Source: Aridibaculum aurantiacum (GTDB taxonomy: Bacteria; Bacteroidota; Bacteroidia; Chitinophagales; Chitinophagaceae). Taken from it: a DNA stretch of 64,000 nucleotides. Location: the NCBI RefSeq assembly GCF_017355875.1, contig NZ_JAFEWC010000001.1:2418001-2482000 (forward strand), written 5' to 3'. The notes beneath the pieces are model-generated. The model did not search any database and had not been told where the DNA came from. It saw only the letters and a list, made by a program, of their open reading frames with translations. Numbering within the stretch: the first letter of the stretch is position 1; each line of letters begins with the position of its first letter. This document shows, piece by piece, positions 14,554-19,699 of the stretch. Made by a program: the position numbers and the translations under genes.

Positions 14554-16482
14554 ATGATGAGAAATAAACTTTCTAAAGTCGTGCTGGCTTCAGCATTGAT
14601 CTTAAATGGAACCATTGCAAACAGCCAACAGGCGGAACTGGATCCTATAACCGTTACAGCTTCATTACATCCTGTATCAGCCAATACAACCGGCAGAAAT
14701 ATTACTGTCATCAGCGGCGAGAGCATTTCCAAATTCCCGGTGAATTCAATTGATGAATTGCTACGGTACCTGCCGGGCCTGGAAGTGCAGGCACGTGGTC
14801 CAATGGGTGCACAAAGTGATATAGTACTGCGTGGCGGCACTTTTCAGCAGGTGCTTGTGGTGCTGGATGGCATCCGGTTGAACGACCCAAACACTGGACA
14901 CTTTAATAGCTATATTCCTATTGCTCCTTCAGAAATTGAACGTATAGAAGTTTTGAAAGGTGCTTCATCAGCTATTTATGGAACGGAAGCTGTGGGAGGT
15001 GTTATTCACATCATTACGAAAACATTTGCATCAAAAGGCAAAGCAGACGGAAAACAAATCAGTGCGCAAGGTGTGGTGGGTGAATATGGCCTGTGGAATG
15101 CGCAGGTAGGCGGCTACCTAAAAAAAGGTAAAACAGCCGTAGCTGCGGGAGCTATTTCTAACAATGCTACTGGGCAGTTGCAGCGTGGCACGAGGGGGTT
15201 CTTTTACAACAACACTTTAAGCGGCTCTGTCAGTCATAGCTTCAGCGAAAATCTGCAACTGTCGTTTCGTTCAGCCTACGACAGCCGTGACTTTGCTGCA
15301 CAAAATTTCTACACCACGTTTGCATCTGATACCGCAAAAGAAAAAGTAACATCCTTATGGAACCACCTGAAGCTGGCTTACCAAAAAGGAAAACACCAAC
15401 TGAGTTTTGATGTGGGTCACAAACATGTAAAGGATGAGTTCACCTTCAATTCTGCTTCTCTTCCTAACCTGAATAAAAGCCAGTTACTACAGGCGCTGGC
15501 GGTCCATTCCTACCAGTTTAAAGAAGATCTTTCTATTACCTCAGGCGCTCAGTGGGTCAACAAACAAATTTCTTCAAACGACAGAGGTAATCACCAACTA
15601 GACCAGGTAGGTGCTTTTGTTTTATTGAATAAAAGCTTCAATGAAAACCTGTTCATTAATCCTGCAATACGTGTAGATTACCATGAAAGAGCAGGCTGGG
15701 AAGTTATACCACAAGTGAATGTAGCCTACAAGCTACCGCACTGGCAGCTACGCGCTTCTGCAGGCAAGACCACACGTGATGCAGATTTCACTGAAAGGTT
15801 CAATAACTATAACAGAGCCAGGGTTACAAGTGGCAGCATTGGTAATCCTGATCTTACTGCTGAACGCTCCACCAGCTATGAAGCAGGTGTTGACTACCTC
15901 GGCATCAAAAACCTAAGGATCAGTTCTACATTCTTCCAGCGATTTAATACGGACCTGGTGGATTGGGTTCCTACTCCTTTTGAGCAGATGCCTAGAACCA
16001 GCAACCTGGTACCAACTGGTCGTTATGCTTTGGCTAAAAACATAGCCAAAGTAACCTCTACAGGTTTTGAAACAGATGTAAAATATGTACACCAGCTTTC
16101 TAAAAAACAACAATTATTTGCAATGCTGGGATTGGTGTGGATCAATAGCGAAAGCAGTGATGCAGTACCCTCTTTTTACATCTCTTCGCACGCACGTTTC
16201 CTTACCAACTTCAATGTTGAGTACAGGTTCAACAGGTTTTCTGTAAGTGTGGCCGGATTATACAAGCAGCGCGGAATAATGCAGGCATCTGCCATAAATG
16301 CCACGCTTTCTAAAGAATATTTTGTGCTAAATACAAAGCTGCAGGCTATGCTGGTAAACGGGCTGAATGCTTTTGTGCAGGTTGATAATCTATTGGATGA
16401 AAACTACAGCGACCTGCTTGGAAGCCAGATGCCCGGCAGATGGTTGATGGGTGGATTGAGGTTCAATTTCAACCAGAAGTAG
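14554..16482 (+). CDS. TonB-dependent outer membrane receptor, BtuB/vitamin-B12-receptor-like
   Basis: 642 residues with a signal peptide (about 1-24), a plug domain (ITVISGESIS, ELLRYLPGLEVQ, DIVLRGGTFQQVLVVLDGIR, GAEA-like SAIYGTEAVGGVIHI up to about residue 155) and a 22-strand barrel ending in an aromatic-rich C-terminus (RFNFNQK). Length and plug resemble BtuB-type receptors for cobalamin or iron complexes. No cobalamin riboswitch motif was found upstream, so the substrate is open. It has no SusD partner or N-terminal carboxypeptidase-like domain. A second ATG two codons from the first is also possible. It shares a bidirectional terminator with the convergent receptor gene. Confidence 0.85.
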   Translation: MMRNKLSKVVLASALILNGTIANSQQAELDPITVTASLHPVSANTTGRNITVISGESISKFPVNSIDELLRYLPGLEVQARGPMGAQSDIVLRGGTFQQVLVVLDGIRLNDPNTGHFNSYIPIAPSEIERIEVLKGASSAIYGTEAVGGVIHIITKTFASKGKADGKQISAQGVVGEYGLWNAQVGGYLKKGKTAVAAGAISNNATGQLQRGTRGFFYNNTLSGSVSHSFSENLQLSFRSAYDSRDFAAQNFYTTFASDTAKEKVTSLWNHLKLAYQKGKHQLSFDVGHKHVKDEFTFNSASLPNLNKSQLLQALAVHSYQFKEDLSITSGAQWVNKQISSNDRGNHQLDQVGAFVLLNKSFNENLFINPAIRVDYHERAGWEVIPQVNVAYKLPHWQLRASAGKTTRDADFTERFNNYNRARVTSGSIGNPDLTAERSTSYEAGVDYLGIKNLRISSTFFQRFNTDLVDWVPTPFEQMPRTSNLVPTGRYALAKNIAKVTSTGFETDVKYVHQLSKKQQLFAMLGLVWINSESSDAVPSFYISSHARFLTNFNVEYRFNRFSVSVAGLYKQRGIMQASAINATLSKEYFVLNTKLQAMLVNGLNAFVQVDNLLDENYSDLLGSQMPGRWLMGGLRFNFNQK

Positions 16483-16552: not shown

Positions 16553-19426
16553 TTACAAGTTAAATGTTAGCCTGCCGTATACATACCTGCCGTTGTAGCC
16601 AAATTGCGACACAGCACGAGAATACGTAAAGCGACCAGAGGATGTACTGTTGAAATGTTCCTGCACATCAGGATACACATCAAACAGGTTGTTTGCTCCC
16701 ACGTTGATTGCAAAACGCTTGTTGATGTCGTAAGTGAAGCTCAGATCAGTAAGCGTTTTTCCGCTAAATCTTTGATCAAGCGTTTCGCGTTGACCTGTAA
16801 ATCCATTTACAACAAGAGCAGCTCCACCCGTAGTGTCAGCCAGGAATGTGGTGCTTCCAAAACGTGAAAAGCGCAACAGTGTACCAAACTTGCCTACACG
16901 GTATTGGAGAGACAAGATCTGCTTGTTCTGCGGACTCTGCGTTTCGATACGCGACTGGTCAAGACGGTTGAAATACCTGCCCAATTGGCCAGAGTTGATC
17001 AATACATCTGATCCATGAATGATAACCTTATCATTCTCATCTCTCCTTACACGATTTTGAACGGTTGAGTGAGCAAGCGTTACATTCAGGTTATGCTTCC
17101 CTCCTAATTTCACTGCGTAGCTAAGCACGGCTTCTAAACCTCTTGAGCGGGTGTTGATACCATTTGCAAATACAGATGCACGATTAGCGCCGGCATTGTT
17201 CAATTCAGCTGTTAAAGCAGGGTCTGTACCACCATCAAAAGCGTTCGATAAGATGATGCGATTGTTGATGTCTACCTGGTACGCGTCAACTGTCAGCTCC
17301 AGGCCTCTTGCCAATCTTGAAGTAGCTCCTAATGAATAAGAAATAGACGTCTCTTGCTTCAGTTGCGGAATTCCAAGTATCTGGGCAATTTTAGAATCAT
17401 TGGTAAAAGTTCCGGCTTGAACAGGAACAAGTTGACCATTGATGGTAATGAATTGCGTAGTCACCTTTGAGTAGTGCTGCTGTTGAAGAGAAGGTGCCCT
17501 GAAACCAGAAGAGGTAGCACCACGCAAGCTTAGCCAGTCTGCCAACTTGTAGCGTGAAGCAACTTTATAATTCAGCGTAGAGCCGAAATCAGAAAAATTC
17601 TCAAAACGCAATGCAGCCGACACCAGCCATTTCTTTGTTATGTCCAGCTCATTGTCGCTATACAAAGCAAAGCTGCGCCTTGTCCAGGTACCTGCACTTT
17701 CAGGTAAAAAACCTGCGAAAACCTGTGCACCTGCAATGGAAGCTAATCCCCTGTCGGTAGTAAGATTTGCATACGAGTTAAATTCCCCGGCTTCAATACC
17801 ATAACCGTCTACTTTGAACTCCGCTCCTACTGCAGTGTTCAAACCTTCCAGTACATCATGGTTTTTTGAAAGATCAAGATTGGTGATAGATTGCCATGTC
17901 CTGGTCTTACCACTGTTGAAGCTCGTTTGCAACTGCTGTGGAGTGATGCCAGGTAAATATGCTTGAGTATAATTCACTGAATTATCTACCAGGTAAGTGT
18001 AAGTGTTAGCGCCGAAGGTTTCACTTGCATCAAATCTCCAGCTACCTAATTTACCACGTATACCTGCCGAAGCTGAATAATCGCGTACACGTGAATTTTG
18101 TTCTGGCAGAAAGCCATTAGGATAAAGAGCTCTTACTGCTGCAGCGGCTGCTGCTGAACTGCTGTTGCTTGAAGGAAAGCTTCCACCAACTCGGATGCTG
18201 TTTGGATAACGATACAAACCTGCAGCATTACCGTTTTTACCATTGGCTAAAGCGTAAGCATATACTTCCAGGTTGTCATTGATTGGATAAGCAAAGTTGG
18301 CTACTACGCCACCACCCTCAATTCTTGAATTTCCAAGACGCAGATCAAAATCGTCTCTTGTTAATCCTTTAGCAGCATTAATGCTATCTGAAACGTCCCT
18401 GCCGTTTACGCTGGGCCAGATCTGGCCGGTATACAACCCGCTACGGTTGGTAGCACCACGGCGCAGGTATTCTGCAGAAAGGTTCAAATATCCTTTCTTC
18501 AGGTTGAAGCCATAGTTAAGTGTTGCCTGGTAATTCTCACCATCGTTTGCATTCACCTTACCAGGAAGCTGGTTATTTGGGTTCAAACGGTTATAAGCGT
18601 AGTTCTTATCATAGCTCGAAATGTGTTGACCATAGGTAGTCGAAAGGCTAAGGCCGGTTCTCTTTTTTAGAACAATATTAATAACTCCCGCTATAGCATC
18701 CGATCCATATTGTGCAGAAGCGCCATCGCGAAGTATCTCTACTCTTTCAATAGAACTGGCAGGTATGGAGTTCAAGTCCGTTCCAACAGTACCACGGTTA
18801 ACGGTTCCATTTACGTTCACCAAAGACGACTGATGATAACGCTTGCCATTCACCAGTACCAGCACCTGGTCTGGACCAAGTCCGCGTAAGTGCGCCGGGT
18901 CAATGTGATCGGTACCATCGCCTAAGGTCTGGCGAACAGAGTTGAATGAAGGAGCAAGAAAACTAAGCAACTGCGATAGGTCCAGCTGACCTACCTGTCC
19001 TGTGATCTGAGCAAGAGGTATGACATCCACCGGAACAGCTGTCTCAATAGCGCTACGTTTAGGATTACGTGAACCTACTACTACAACGGTATTGGCATTA
19101 GCAACAGTTGCCAGGCTGATAGCCGGAAGTACGGTAGTATTATTTGATATATTAACTGATACACGCTGTGTTGCCTGTCCGACATAAGAAACTACTAACG
19201 TATAGGTGCCCGCTGGAAGCGACAACCTAAACGTGCCGTCACTATCGGCAACCACGGTGTTTTTTGTTTCTTCTATAAAAACGGTAGCGCCGCTAAGGGT
19301 GTTACCCGATGCGTCTCTTACAGTACCGGTTGTAGATATGTTTTGAGCGTTGGCTATAACGAGCGTAAGAGAAAAAATAATAATCAGAACTAATCCTTTT
19401 AAAGAGGAAGAAGCTTGTACGTTCAT
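16553..19426 (-). CDS. TonB-dependent receptor with carboxypeptidase-regulatory-like N-domain
   Basis: 957 residues. Signal peptide (about 1-27), a CarboxypepD_reg-like domain (about 30-110; GTVRDASGNTLSGATVFIEE), plug domain (about 120-255, with LRGLGPDQVLVLVNGKR and GASAQYGSDAIAGVINIVLK) and a large barrel ending in YGRLTFNL. It should import a large or scarce nutrient across the outer membrane using TonB energy; the substrate is unknown and no SusD-like gene is adjacent. Upstream on the same strand are a cysteine-rich leader ORF (19598-19684) and an intrinsic terminator (19541-19572), 115 nt before the start, so its expression is probably controlled by premature termination. Confidence 0.88.
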   Translation of the reverse strand: MNVQASSSLKGLVLIIIFSLTLVIANAQNISTTGTVRDASGNTLSGATVFIEETKNTVVADSDGTFRLSLPAGTYTLVVSYVGQATQRVSVNISNNTTVLPAISLATVANANTVVVVGSRNPKRSAIETAVPVDVIPLAQITGQVGQLDLSQLLSFLAPSFNSVRQTLGDGTDHIDPAHLRGLGPDQVLVLVNGKRYHQSSLVNVNGTVNRGTVGTDLNSIPASSIERVEILRDGASAQYGSDAIAGVINIVLKKRTGLSLSTTYGQHISSYDKNYAYNRLNPNNQLPGKVNANDGENYQATLNYGFNLKKGYLNLSAEYLRRGATNRSGLYTGQIWPSVNGRDVSDSINAAKGLTRDDFDLRLGNSRIEGGGVVANFAYPINDNLEVYAYALANGKNGNAAGLYRYPNSIRVGGSFPSSNSSSAAAAAAVRALYPNGFLPEQNSRVRDYSASAGIRGKLGSWRFDASETFGANTYTYLVDNSVNYTQAYLPGITPQQLQTSFNSGKTRTWQSITNLDLSKNHDVLEGLNTAVGAEFKVDGYGIEAGEFNSYANLTTDRGLASIAGAQVFAGFLPESAGTWTRRSFALYSDNELDITKKWLVSAALRFENFSDFGSTLNYKVASRYKLADWLSLRGATSSGFRAPSLQQQHYSKVTTQFITINGQLVPVQAGTFTNDSKIAQILGIPQLKQETSISYSLGATSRLARGLELTVDAYQVDINNRIILSNAFDGGTDPALTAELNNAGANRASVFANGINTRSRGLEAVLSYAVKLGGKHNLNVTLAHSTVQNRVRRDENDKVIIHGSDVLINSGQLGRYFNRLDQSRIETQSPQNKQILSLQYRVGKFGTLLRFSRFGSTTFLADTTGGAALVVNGFTGQRETLDQRFSGKTLTDLSFTYDINKRFAINVGANNLFDVYPDVQEHFNSTSSGRFTYSRAVSQFGYNGRYVYGRLTFNL

Positions 19427-19540
19427 GAGTTTGTTTGAATTTGATTTTGATGTTTTGTTTAGTAGCTATTGTTTAATTGGCTACAACATCGGTCTGTATG
19501 TATGTTCATATTTATTTTGGTTTATCGTTTTGTGTATGTA

Positions 19541-19572
19541 AAAAAGAAAAAGCCTCCCAGGGTTGGAAGGCT
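19541..19572 (-). terminator. Intrinsic terminator in the TonB receptor leader (attenuator)
   Basis: On the minus strand AGCCTTCC (19572-19565) pairs with GGGAGGCT (19558-19551) over eight positions including one U-G, with loop AACCCT, followed by TTTTTCTTTTTT. The wobble becomes a mismatch on the plus strand, so the signal is minus-strand specific. It lies between the leader ORF and the receptor start. Confidence 0.8.
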
Positions 19573-19672
19573 TGTATATAATGAGGTAATGACAATATTA
19601 CTTTACAGCCTTCTTCATAGGTAGACAACAACCGCAACAACAGTTTGTAGACATGCAGTGGTTATGAAGGCT
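19551..19672 (-). promoter_or_regulatory. Attenuator-like alternating RNA segments 1-2-3-4
   Basis: Minus-strand segments: 1 = AGCCTTC (19672-19666, codons 5-7 of the leader ORF); 2 = GAAGGCT (19613-19607, codons 24-26); 3 = AGCCTTC (19572-19566, terminator 5' arm); 4 = GGAGGCT (within 19558-19551). Pairs 1:2 and 2:3 are perfect seven-base helices, and 3:4 is the terminator. A ribosome halted on the Cys codons (codons 15-20) would hinder 1:2 and leave 2 free to pair with 3. A ribosome reaching the stop would cover 2 and allow 3:4. Confidence 0.6.
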
Positions 19673-19684
19673 CGATTTGTTCAT
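19598..19684 (-). CDS. Cysteine-rich leader peptide (28 aa)
   Basis: ORF from ATG at 19684 to TAA at 19598. The peptide starts MNKSSLHNHC and contains the cluster CCCGCC at residues 15-20 before ending MKKAVK. Six of its 28 residues are Cys and two are His. A second in-frame ATG is codon 11. No signal peptide or membrane segment. It lies 25 nt upstream of an intrinsic terminator and 171 nt upstream of the TonB receptor ATG on the same strand. The position and codon content fit a regulatory leader peptide sensing Cys-tRNA supply, or a nascent metal-binding peptide. It could instead be a free-standing small protein. Coding is inferred, not proven. Confidence 0.6.
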   Translation of the reverse strand: MNKSSLHNHCMSTNCCCGCCLPMKKAVK

Positions 19685-19691
19685 TGCGATG

Positions 19692-19699
19692 CAAATGTA
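19692..19699 (-). promoter_or_regulatory. -7 promoter box of the leader transcript
   Basis: TACATTTG on the minus strand, a full TAnnTTTG match, ends 7 nt before the leader ATG, so the transcript would be leaderless or nearly so. A TTG lies about 22 nt upstream, slightly far for a -33 element. Confidence 0.5.

Follow-up and report, generated by a model that had tools for sequence, protein, structure and literature searches.

Cysteine-codon leaders in Chitinophagaceae: a predicted transcription attenuator ahead of a TonB-dependent receptor gene and recurrent leader ORFs at metY

In Aridibaculum aurantiacum, a short open reading frame (ORF) rich in cysteine codons precedes the gene for a TonB-dependent receptor, and the arrangement of the DNA around it suggests that the locus is a ribosome-mediated, cysteine-responsive transcription attenuator, a reading that we hold to be quite probable. 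The locus lies within a stretch of 64,000 nucleotides (contig NZ_JAFEWC010000001.1, positions 2,418,001 to 2,482,000), which is called the window here and whose own numbering is used throughout. The elements of the predicted attenuator and their geometry can be seen directly in the DNA, as can leaders with runs of cysteine codons ahead of metY, both in the same genome and in relatives. The device that recurs is the one at metY and not the window copy.

The leader ORF of the window, MNKSSLHNHCMSTNCCCGCCLPMKKAVK, occupies positions 19598..19684 of the minus strand and has 28 codons. Translation of this minus-strand frame places cysteine at six of them (codons 10, 15, 16, 17, 19 and 20), and codons 15-20 form the cluster CCCGCC (19625..19642, minus strand); a cluster of regulatory codons of this kind is among the features of trp-type attenuators. 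The box TACATTTG (19692..19699, minus strand), which we take to be a Bacteroidota-type -7 element, stands 7 nt ahead of the leader ATG, and a TTG (19724-19722, minus strand) is found upstream of the box with a spacing of 22 nt. Provided that the box acts like the Bacteroidota consensus, the 7-nt gap leaves scarcely any 5′ untranslated region (5′ UTR), and the leader mRNA is probably leaderless or almost so. Both the transcription start site and the translation of the leader are predictions from these features. At the Rfam gathering threshold, the only known RNA family in the whole window is one tRNA, with none at the leader locus.

Beyond the leader, the same strand holds an intrinsic terminator (19540..19573), which consists of a hairpin at 19573-19550 with 10 pairs, 5 of them GC, and a T-rich tail, TTTCTTTTTT. 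The surrounding 1.3 kb contain four terminator-like matches, two of which are this same hairpin, as against 0.7 ± 0.8 in shuffles. Four segments of the minus strand could take part in alternative helices. Segment 1, AGCCTTC (19666..19672), lies in leader codons 5-7, and segment 2, GAAGGCT (19607..19613), lies in codons 24-26 and can pair with either segment 1 or segment 3. Segment 3, AGCCTTCC (19565..19572), is the 5′ arm of the terminator and contains a copy of AGCCTTC, while segment 4, GGGAGGCT (19551..19558), is the 3′ arm. Both 7-mers occurred in the correct order in a fraction of 2.5e-5 of 200000 leader shuffles. An initial annotation of this DNA had listed the 28-codon minus-strand ORF, the CCCGCC cluster, the box 7 nt upstream, the terminator with its T-run and the receptor gene 114 nt further on, and all of these are present where it had placed them; the repeats that it had described, AGCCTTC in codons 5-7 and in the 5′ arm of the terminator and GAAGGCT in codons 24-26, could all be located as well.

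The helices 1:2, 2:3 and 3:4 are mutually exclusive and are combined with an intrinsic terminator, as in trp-type attenuators, with P(1:2) at only 0.10 and P(2:3) at 0.81 at equilibrium in the ribosome-free transcript that includes segment 3 and ends before segment 4. Thus, the safeguard that 1:2 pairing could provide hinges on co-transcriptional timing. For the 156-nt transcript as a whole, folding is more favourable than in 198 of 200 shuffled sequences (z -2.84). Ribosome stalling was modelled on a transcript cut off ahead of segment 4, on the assumption that the ribosome protects 11 nt on its downstream side. In this truncated transcript, the mean probability of 2:3 pairing was 0.93 for every tested A-site position between codons 5 and 20 and dropped to 0 once the A site was at codon 21 or later, so that all six cysteine codons would be permissive and a ribosome beyond them would not. 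For 11 nt of protection, the boundary therefore falls between codons 20 and 21, where the stall positions of a trp-type attenuator would place it. By arithmetic on the segment positions, the cysteine codons within 10-19 are still permissive at up to 14 nt of protection. This geometry fits, and lends support to, the 1-2-3-4 attenuator architecture that the initial annotation had proposed. When segment 4 is present in the full transcript, the terminator is the equilibrium fold, both in the absence of a ribosome and at 8 of the 9 tested ribosome positions. Consequently, the switch would have to be kinetic and rely on timing, as attenuators do.

In the proposed mechanism, RNA polymerase would start just upstream of the leader ATG and a ribosome would translate the 28-codon leader. 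If Cys-tRNA is plentiful, the ribosome would reach the stop codon and mask segment 2, segments 3 and 4 would form the terminator, and the receptor gene would remain untranscribed. If Cys-tRNA is scarce, the ribosome would stall at cysteine codons 10, 15-17, 19 or 20, leaving segment 2 free to pair with segment 3, so that no terminator would form and the receptor would be made. Without any translation, early 1:2 pairing would permit the terminator to form. Stalling and read-through at the window leader are thus what its layout predicts.

The gene that would be controlled in this way (16553..19426, minus strand) encodes a TonB-dependent receptor of 957 aa with PF00593, PF07715 and a CarboxypepD_reg-like N-domain; its ATG is at 19426, 114 nt past the T-run of the terminator. 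Family models match it merely as a generic TonB receptor, and the solved relatives nearest by sequence are siderophore-type receptors, aligned in the plug region. A search with the receptor gave 27 named matches, mostly from Chryseobacterium and including Flavihumibacter (Chitinophagaceae), with the closest, at 51% identity, in a Saprospiraceae MAG. To our knowledge, the cargoes of this TonB receptor family are mostly unknown. No recognised sulfur gene was seen adjoining the receptor gene in the window. Its closest paralogue by score in the same genome (44% identical, C3:959699) adjoins a gene for gamma-glutamyltranspeptidase (PF01019), an enzyme with a role in glutathione breakdown, and organic sulfur is therefore plausible as the class of cargo. 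The receptor probably imports an organic sulfur source. Close to the same paralogue, an ORF, MCLMYYCMRNSSCCGSCHYSGSFA (L231:4572-4646; G000:C3 at about 959.6 kb), ends 14 nt before the receptor ATG; its DNA can form GCATGAG...CTCATGC, and no clear promoter box was seen there. The window also contains a second, BtuB-like TonB receptor gene (14554-16482, plus strand) that is convergent with the one discussed here, and no cobalamin riboswitch was found in the window at the Rfam gathering threshold.

A second cysteine leader is present in the same genome. It is MISTTSHISSFSKTVSFVCCCCCCCCL, with eight consecutive cysteine codons (contig C1 at about 719 kb, locus L109), which stands 6 nt behind a TAACTTAG box and ends 92 nt before metY. 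The latter gene encodes an O-acetylhomoserine/O-acetylserine sulfhydrylase according to TIGR01326 (675 bits for a cut-off of 495), and the gene preceding metY is of the cystathionine gamma-synthase/lyase type, with its best models below their cut-offs. The two leaders were compared with other short intergenic ORFs that precede a gene of the same orientation, over 1.64 Mb of the genome made up of 80 stretches of contig C1 and the window. Among 1605 such ORFs, the motif CC.?CC appears in four rows, two of which are the window leader read from two starts, and a promoter-like box accompanies it in just two leaders, those of the window and of metY. This count is descriptive, since the requirement for CC.?CC and the inclusion of the TA..TTAG form of the box were both decided once the two leaders had been seen. 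A third boxed ORF (C1:2424885), with 45 codons and six scattered cysteines, lies 29 nt before a gene that reads as topoisomerase-like; it lacks CC.?CC and was set aside. The CC.CC pattern occurs at 152 places in the genome, about 100 of which were listed. Of the listed places, those in the first 1.58 Mb of C1 are covered by the scan, and those on the rest of C1, together with the ten on C2, were fetched separately; every CC.CC ORF that these contained overlaps a larger open frame and was rejected.

Cysteine leaders at metY are also found in other members of the family. The gene is present in 66 of 147 family genomes, and 65 loci were read upstream, the remaining one (G076), whose match began only at residue 81, being left out. 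At 29 of the 65 loci, an ORF within 250 nt of metY has four or more cysteines in eight codons, while the reverse strand reaches the same threshold at 1 of 65 loci and shuffles do so in 2 of 1300 cases. For the first 30 loci, cysteine reached the threshold in 17 against 0 expected, and the highest of ten control amino acids was leucine, with 9 against 6.4 expected. The presence of cysteine leaders at metY, in the own genome and at these 29 loci, makes it likely that the signal sensed by the window leader is the supply of cysteine rather than a metal, and it supports the suggestion in the initial annotation that the receptor is controlled by Cys-tRNA supply.

The metY leaders, of which MNKQQNIYFHAPAHRSCICCMCCMP and MTTVLHTNFPHNYAGICCICCMP are typical, share several features. 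In 24 of the 29, the peptide closes with a C and then an M or L, after which there is an optional P and no more than eight further residues. Their cysteine codons are mixed (TGT 116, TGC 41). A TAnnTTT[G/A] box occurs at most 40 nt from a start at 23 of the 29 loci, with box-to-start gaps of 0-40 nt. Many of these leaders end in the hairpin ATGCC-GYAA-GGCAT, the tetraloop of which can hold the stop codon. This pattern has 30 exact matches among those listed for 294 family genomes, and the 18 of them that were placed all lie directly before metY. In 395 genomes sampled from the phylum, a search allowing at most one mismatch returned a single match, in another family and not followed by any evident metY-like gene, which is probably due to chance; the sample held 14 members of the family, including the genome of the window, and none of them had a match.

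Some metY loci also carry a SAM-I signature. Across the 65 loci, 12 have both a cysteine leader and this signature, 17 only the leader, 13 only the signature and 23 neither at the thresholds used, although some of the last group carry two or three cysteines (for instance, SLGTDCCCGWR). Rfam confirmed SAM-I (RF00162) in 8 of 15 chosen loci, and no other RNA family was found in these 15 at E<=0.1. At five loci with a tandem arrangement (L128, L138, L140, L147 and L152), an Rfam-confirmed SAM-I riboswitch ends 383-485 nt before metY, and the cysteine leader lies between the two, behind a TAnnTTT[G/A] box that ends in TTTA in L147 and in TTTG in the other four. Such a tandem is as expected for an enzyme that serves both methionine and cysteine.

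No clear T-run terminator was seen in the metY leaders that were inspected. Thus, the window copy shares the sensor, that is, the cysteine codons, but has an intrinsic terminator of its own. Upstream of metY, between positions -80 and -20, C is abundant and G sparse: the C/G ratio is 2.22 in 17 loci with a cysteine leader, as compared with 1.11 at six SAM loci and 1.02 ahead of 501 genes in the window genome. Paired 5′ and 3′ segments around the metY leaders are suggestive only: the score was 285 against 261 ± 9.8, 23 of 2000 permutations being as good, and 38 of 2000 after two near-duplicates were dropped. By eye, the -7 box in metY upstream regions such as L136, L138, L149 and L152 is seen inside an inverted repeat, CTAC..TAAATTTG..GTAG, which is possibly the operator of a repressor; otherwise, the 5′ GTAGGGTA may pair with a downstream segment, for which the permutations give weak support.

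Ahead of related receptors, by contrast, the leader peptide of the window is not conserved, and the decisive support therefore comes from metY and not from orthologues of the receptor. A search of 294 family genomes with the peptide found no convincing orthologue, as the 18 weak matches with E<=0.05, from as many genomes apart from the own one, all overlap, by more than half, a frame that stays open for 120 codons or more on either strand. In ten genomes of the genus, the best match outside the own genome had E 0.06, among four such matches located in two genomes; a search of the genome contigs with a DNA pattern representing the core of the peptide gave no match. Among 68 receptor loci, in which one gene is counted as two fragments (L029 and L035), at least four cysteines in eight codons were found ahead of the receptor at two in the sense direction and at one in the antisense direction, so that the class is not enriched. 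The two sense loci are the window and L075, and the cluster in L075 appears, on reading, to lie on the strand opposite the start of a divergent GGT-like gene, leaving the window alone as credible among the 68. Leaders of a branched-chain amino acid (BCAA)-like type that were suspected at L044 and L064 proved to lie inside the frame of the upstream gene. The stretch examined before receptors that are 65% and 60% identical (L068 and L069) contains no ORF with at least three cysteines, and Rfam returned nothing for ten receptor loci at E<=1. The initial annotation had advised looking in Bacteroidota genomes for short ORFs with cysteine clusters before TonB receptor genes and for covariation of segments 1-4, and neither the ORF nor the pairing is kept ahead of the orthologous receptors. 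It had also regarded a lack of conservation in relatives as evidence against the attenuator; that lack is real at the orthologous receptors, and at metY the cysteine-leader device does recur.

Other explanations of the window locus have to be weighed against this background. The ORF might have arisen by chance, with the hairpin being the ordinary terminator of the upstream gene and the receptor having an unrecognised promoter of its own. In effect, the hairpin does sit between two co-directional genes, as the gene upstream of it, encoding 209 aa, is read in the same direction as that of the receptor; the leader is unconserved in relatives, and an E. coli-type promoter match (9/12, by the E. 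coli consensus) is present at 19542-19514, between the hairpin and the receptor. Nevertheless, such matches are no more frequent than in shuffles (3 vs 3.2), and no TAnnTTTG-like box was found between the terminator and the receptor ATG. The ordered 7-mers are also as rare in shuffles as given above, and the only other ORF with both CC.?CC and a box among the 1605 is the metY leader. We consider an origin by chance unlikely. Another proposal shares the cysteine signal with our preferred reading but would transmit it by another route, such as termination by Rho or a coupling with translation further downstream, with the intrinsic hairpin being secondary. The lack of a clear T-run terminator in the inspected metY leaders would agree with this, as would the C-rich and G-poor composition before metY, which resembles Rho-loading regions. 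Rho has also been raised for the cysteine leaders of Actinobacteria by Seliverstov et al., who term their own prediction rather weak (PMC1262725). By contrast, the window locus has a strong intrinsic terminator with a matching antiterminator, and for this locus such a route appears highly improbable.

The nascent peptide itself, rich in cysteine and histidine, might instead sense a metal (copper or zinc) or the redox state and arrest the ribosome, as the initial annotation had offered as an alternative. HNHC and CCCGCC could bind a metal, and a TonB receptor lies downstream, as it does for CruR of Bordetella, a copper-responsive upstream ORF that acts with Rho-dependent termination (PMC9426467). 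However, CruR is an exported DUF2946 protein of 145 residues with a CXXC motif and a RAPP arrest motif, while the window peptide has 28 aa, ends in PMKKAVK, lacks RAPP and has no Pfam match at E<=1; its membership in the CruR/DUF2946 group is thus excluded. The CXXC that the two share (C16-C17-G18-C19 in the window) is unavoidable in such a cysteine cluster. In addition, a similar leader precedes metY, a sulfur gene, in the own genome and in the family, and the lack of conservation of the peptide sequence fits sensing by codons. Metal or redox sensing was hence left unsupported and seems very unlikely.

In mechanism, the predicted attenuator is of the trp type, and its sensor is similar to that of the polycysteine leader ORFs known from Actinobacteria. 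With trp- and his-type attenuators it shares a short ORF with regulatory codons, the alternative 1:2, 2:3 and 3:4 pairings and an intrinsic terminator. It differs from them in having cysteine codons, in having scarcely any 5′ UTR if the box is a promoter, and in its target, which is an outer-membrane receptor instead of a biosynthetic operon. As regards a metabolic link between the controlled gene and the amino acid that is sensed, metY fits, and for the receptor there is the paralogue beside the gamma-glutamyltranspeptidase gene. The polycysteine leader ORFs of Canestrari et al. 2020 are reportedly leaderless, going by the title of that work. They are ORFs of Actinobacteria, as described in two later papers (PMC9094748, PMC13236596), and short ORFs with runs of cysteine codons before sulfur genes had been predicted in the same phylum (PMC1262725). 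The similarity lies in these runs of cysteine codons within short ORFs ahead of sulfur genes, which here means metY, the sulfur role of the receptor being only probable. The differences are the phylum and the terminator hairpin, one being present in the window copy and the Actinobacterial leaders having no conserved one (PMC1262725); moreover, the material consulted on the Actinobacterial ORFs does not mention a receptor as a target, while the window leader precedes one. Within Bacteroidota, attenuation by leader peptides has been inferred in Flavobacterium psychrophilum, upstream of amino-acid operons, and in Bacteroides, and the available parts of these papers do not mention a cysteine leader (PMC9723704, PMC7366714). 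A search of the open-licence literature found no report of cysteine leaders in Bacteroidota.

Taken together with the metY loci, the window locus leads us to favour, with less assurance than for the attenuator itself, a cysteine-sensing leader regulon at the level of the family that is independent of the mycobacterial one. It would comprise near-leaderless polycysteine leaders on metY, often in tandem with SAM-I and often with a hairpin that was not found at metY outside the family, and the outer-membrane receptor in the genome of the window, so that import would be tied directly to the charging of Cys-tRNA. If this is true, control by cysteine leaders extends to Bacteroidota, an outer-membrane transporter is placed under an amino-acid attenuator, and the leader offers a sequence-based clue to what one receptor transports. 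The metY leaders that lie beside SAM-I riboswitches would constitute a natural control region for two signals, methionine and cysteine.

Two minor observations concern other receptors related to that of the window. Before the receptor that is 60% identical (L069), a short ORF, MKHLINFSLKCKYLSASNYRC, is located 146 nt from the start and 4 nt behind TATATTTG; it has two cysteines, one of them directly before the stop codon, and no terminator-like T-run was seen. In four genus mates (L024, L026, L030 and L031), a conserved 5′ element without an Rfam match is found within about 200 nt of the starts of related receptors. It comprises a GCAGCAT hairpin and the sequence AAGAGTG..., along with a short ORF that ends near cysteine codons and is exemplified by MQHFATLNAPCS, and these four receptors stand beside a gamma-glutamyltransferase-like gene, as judged by reading the divergent sequence.
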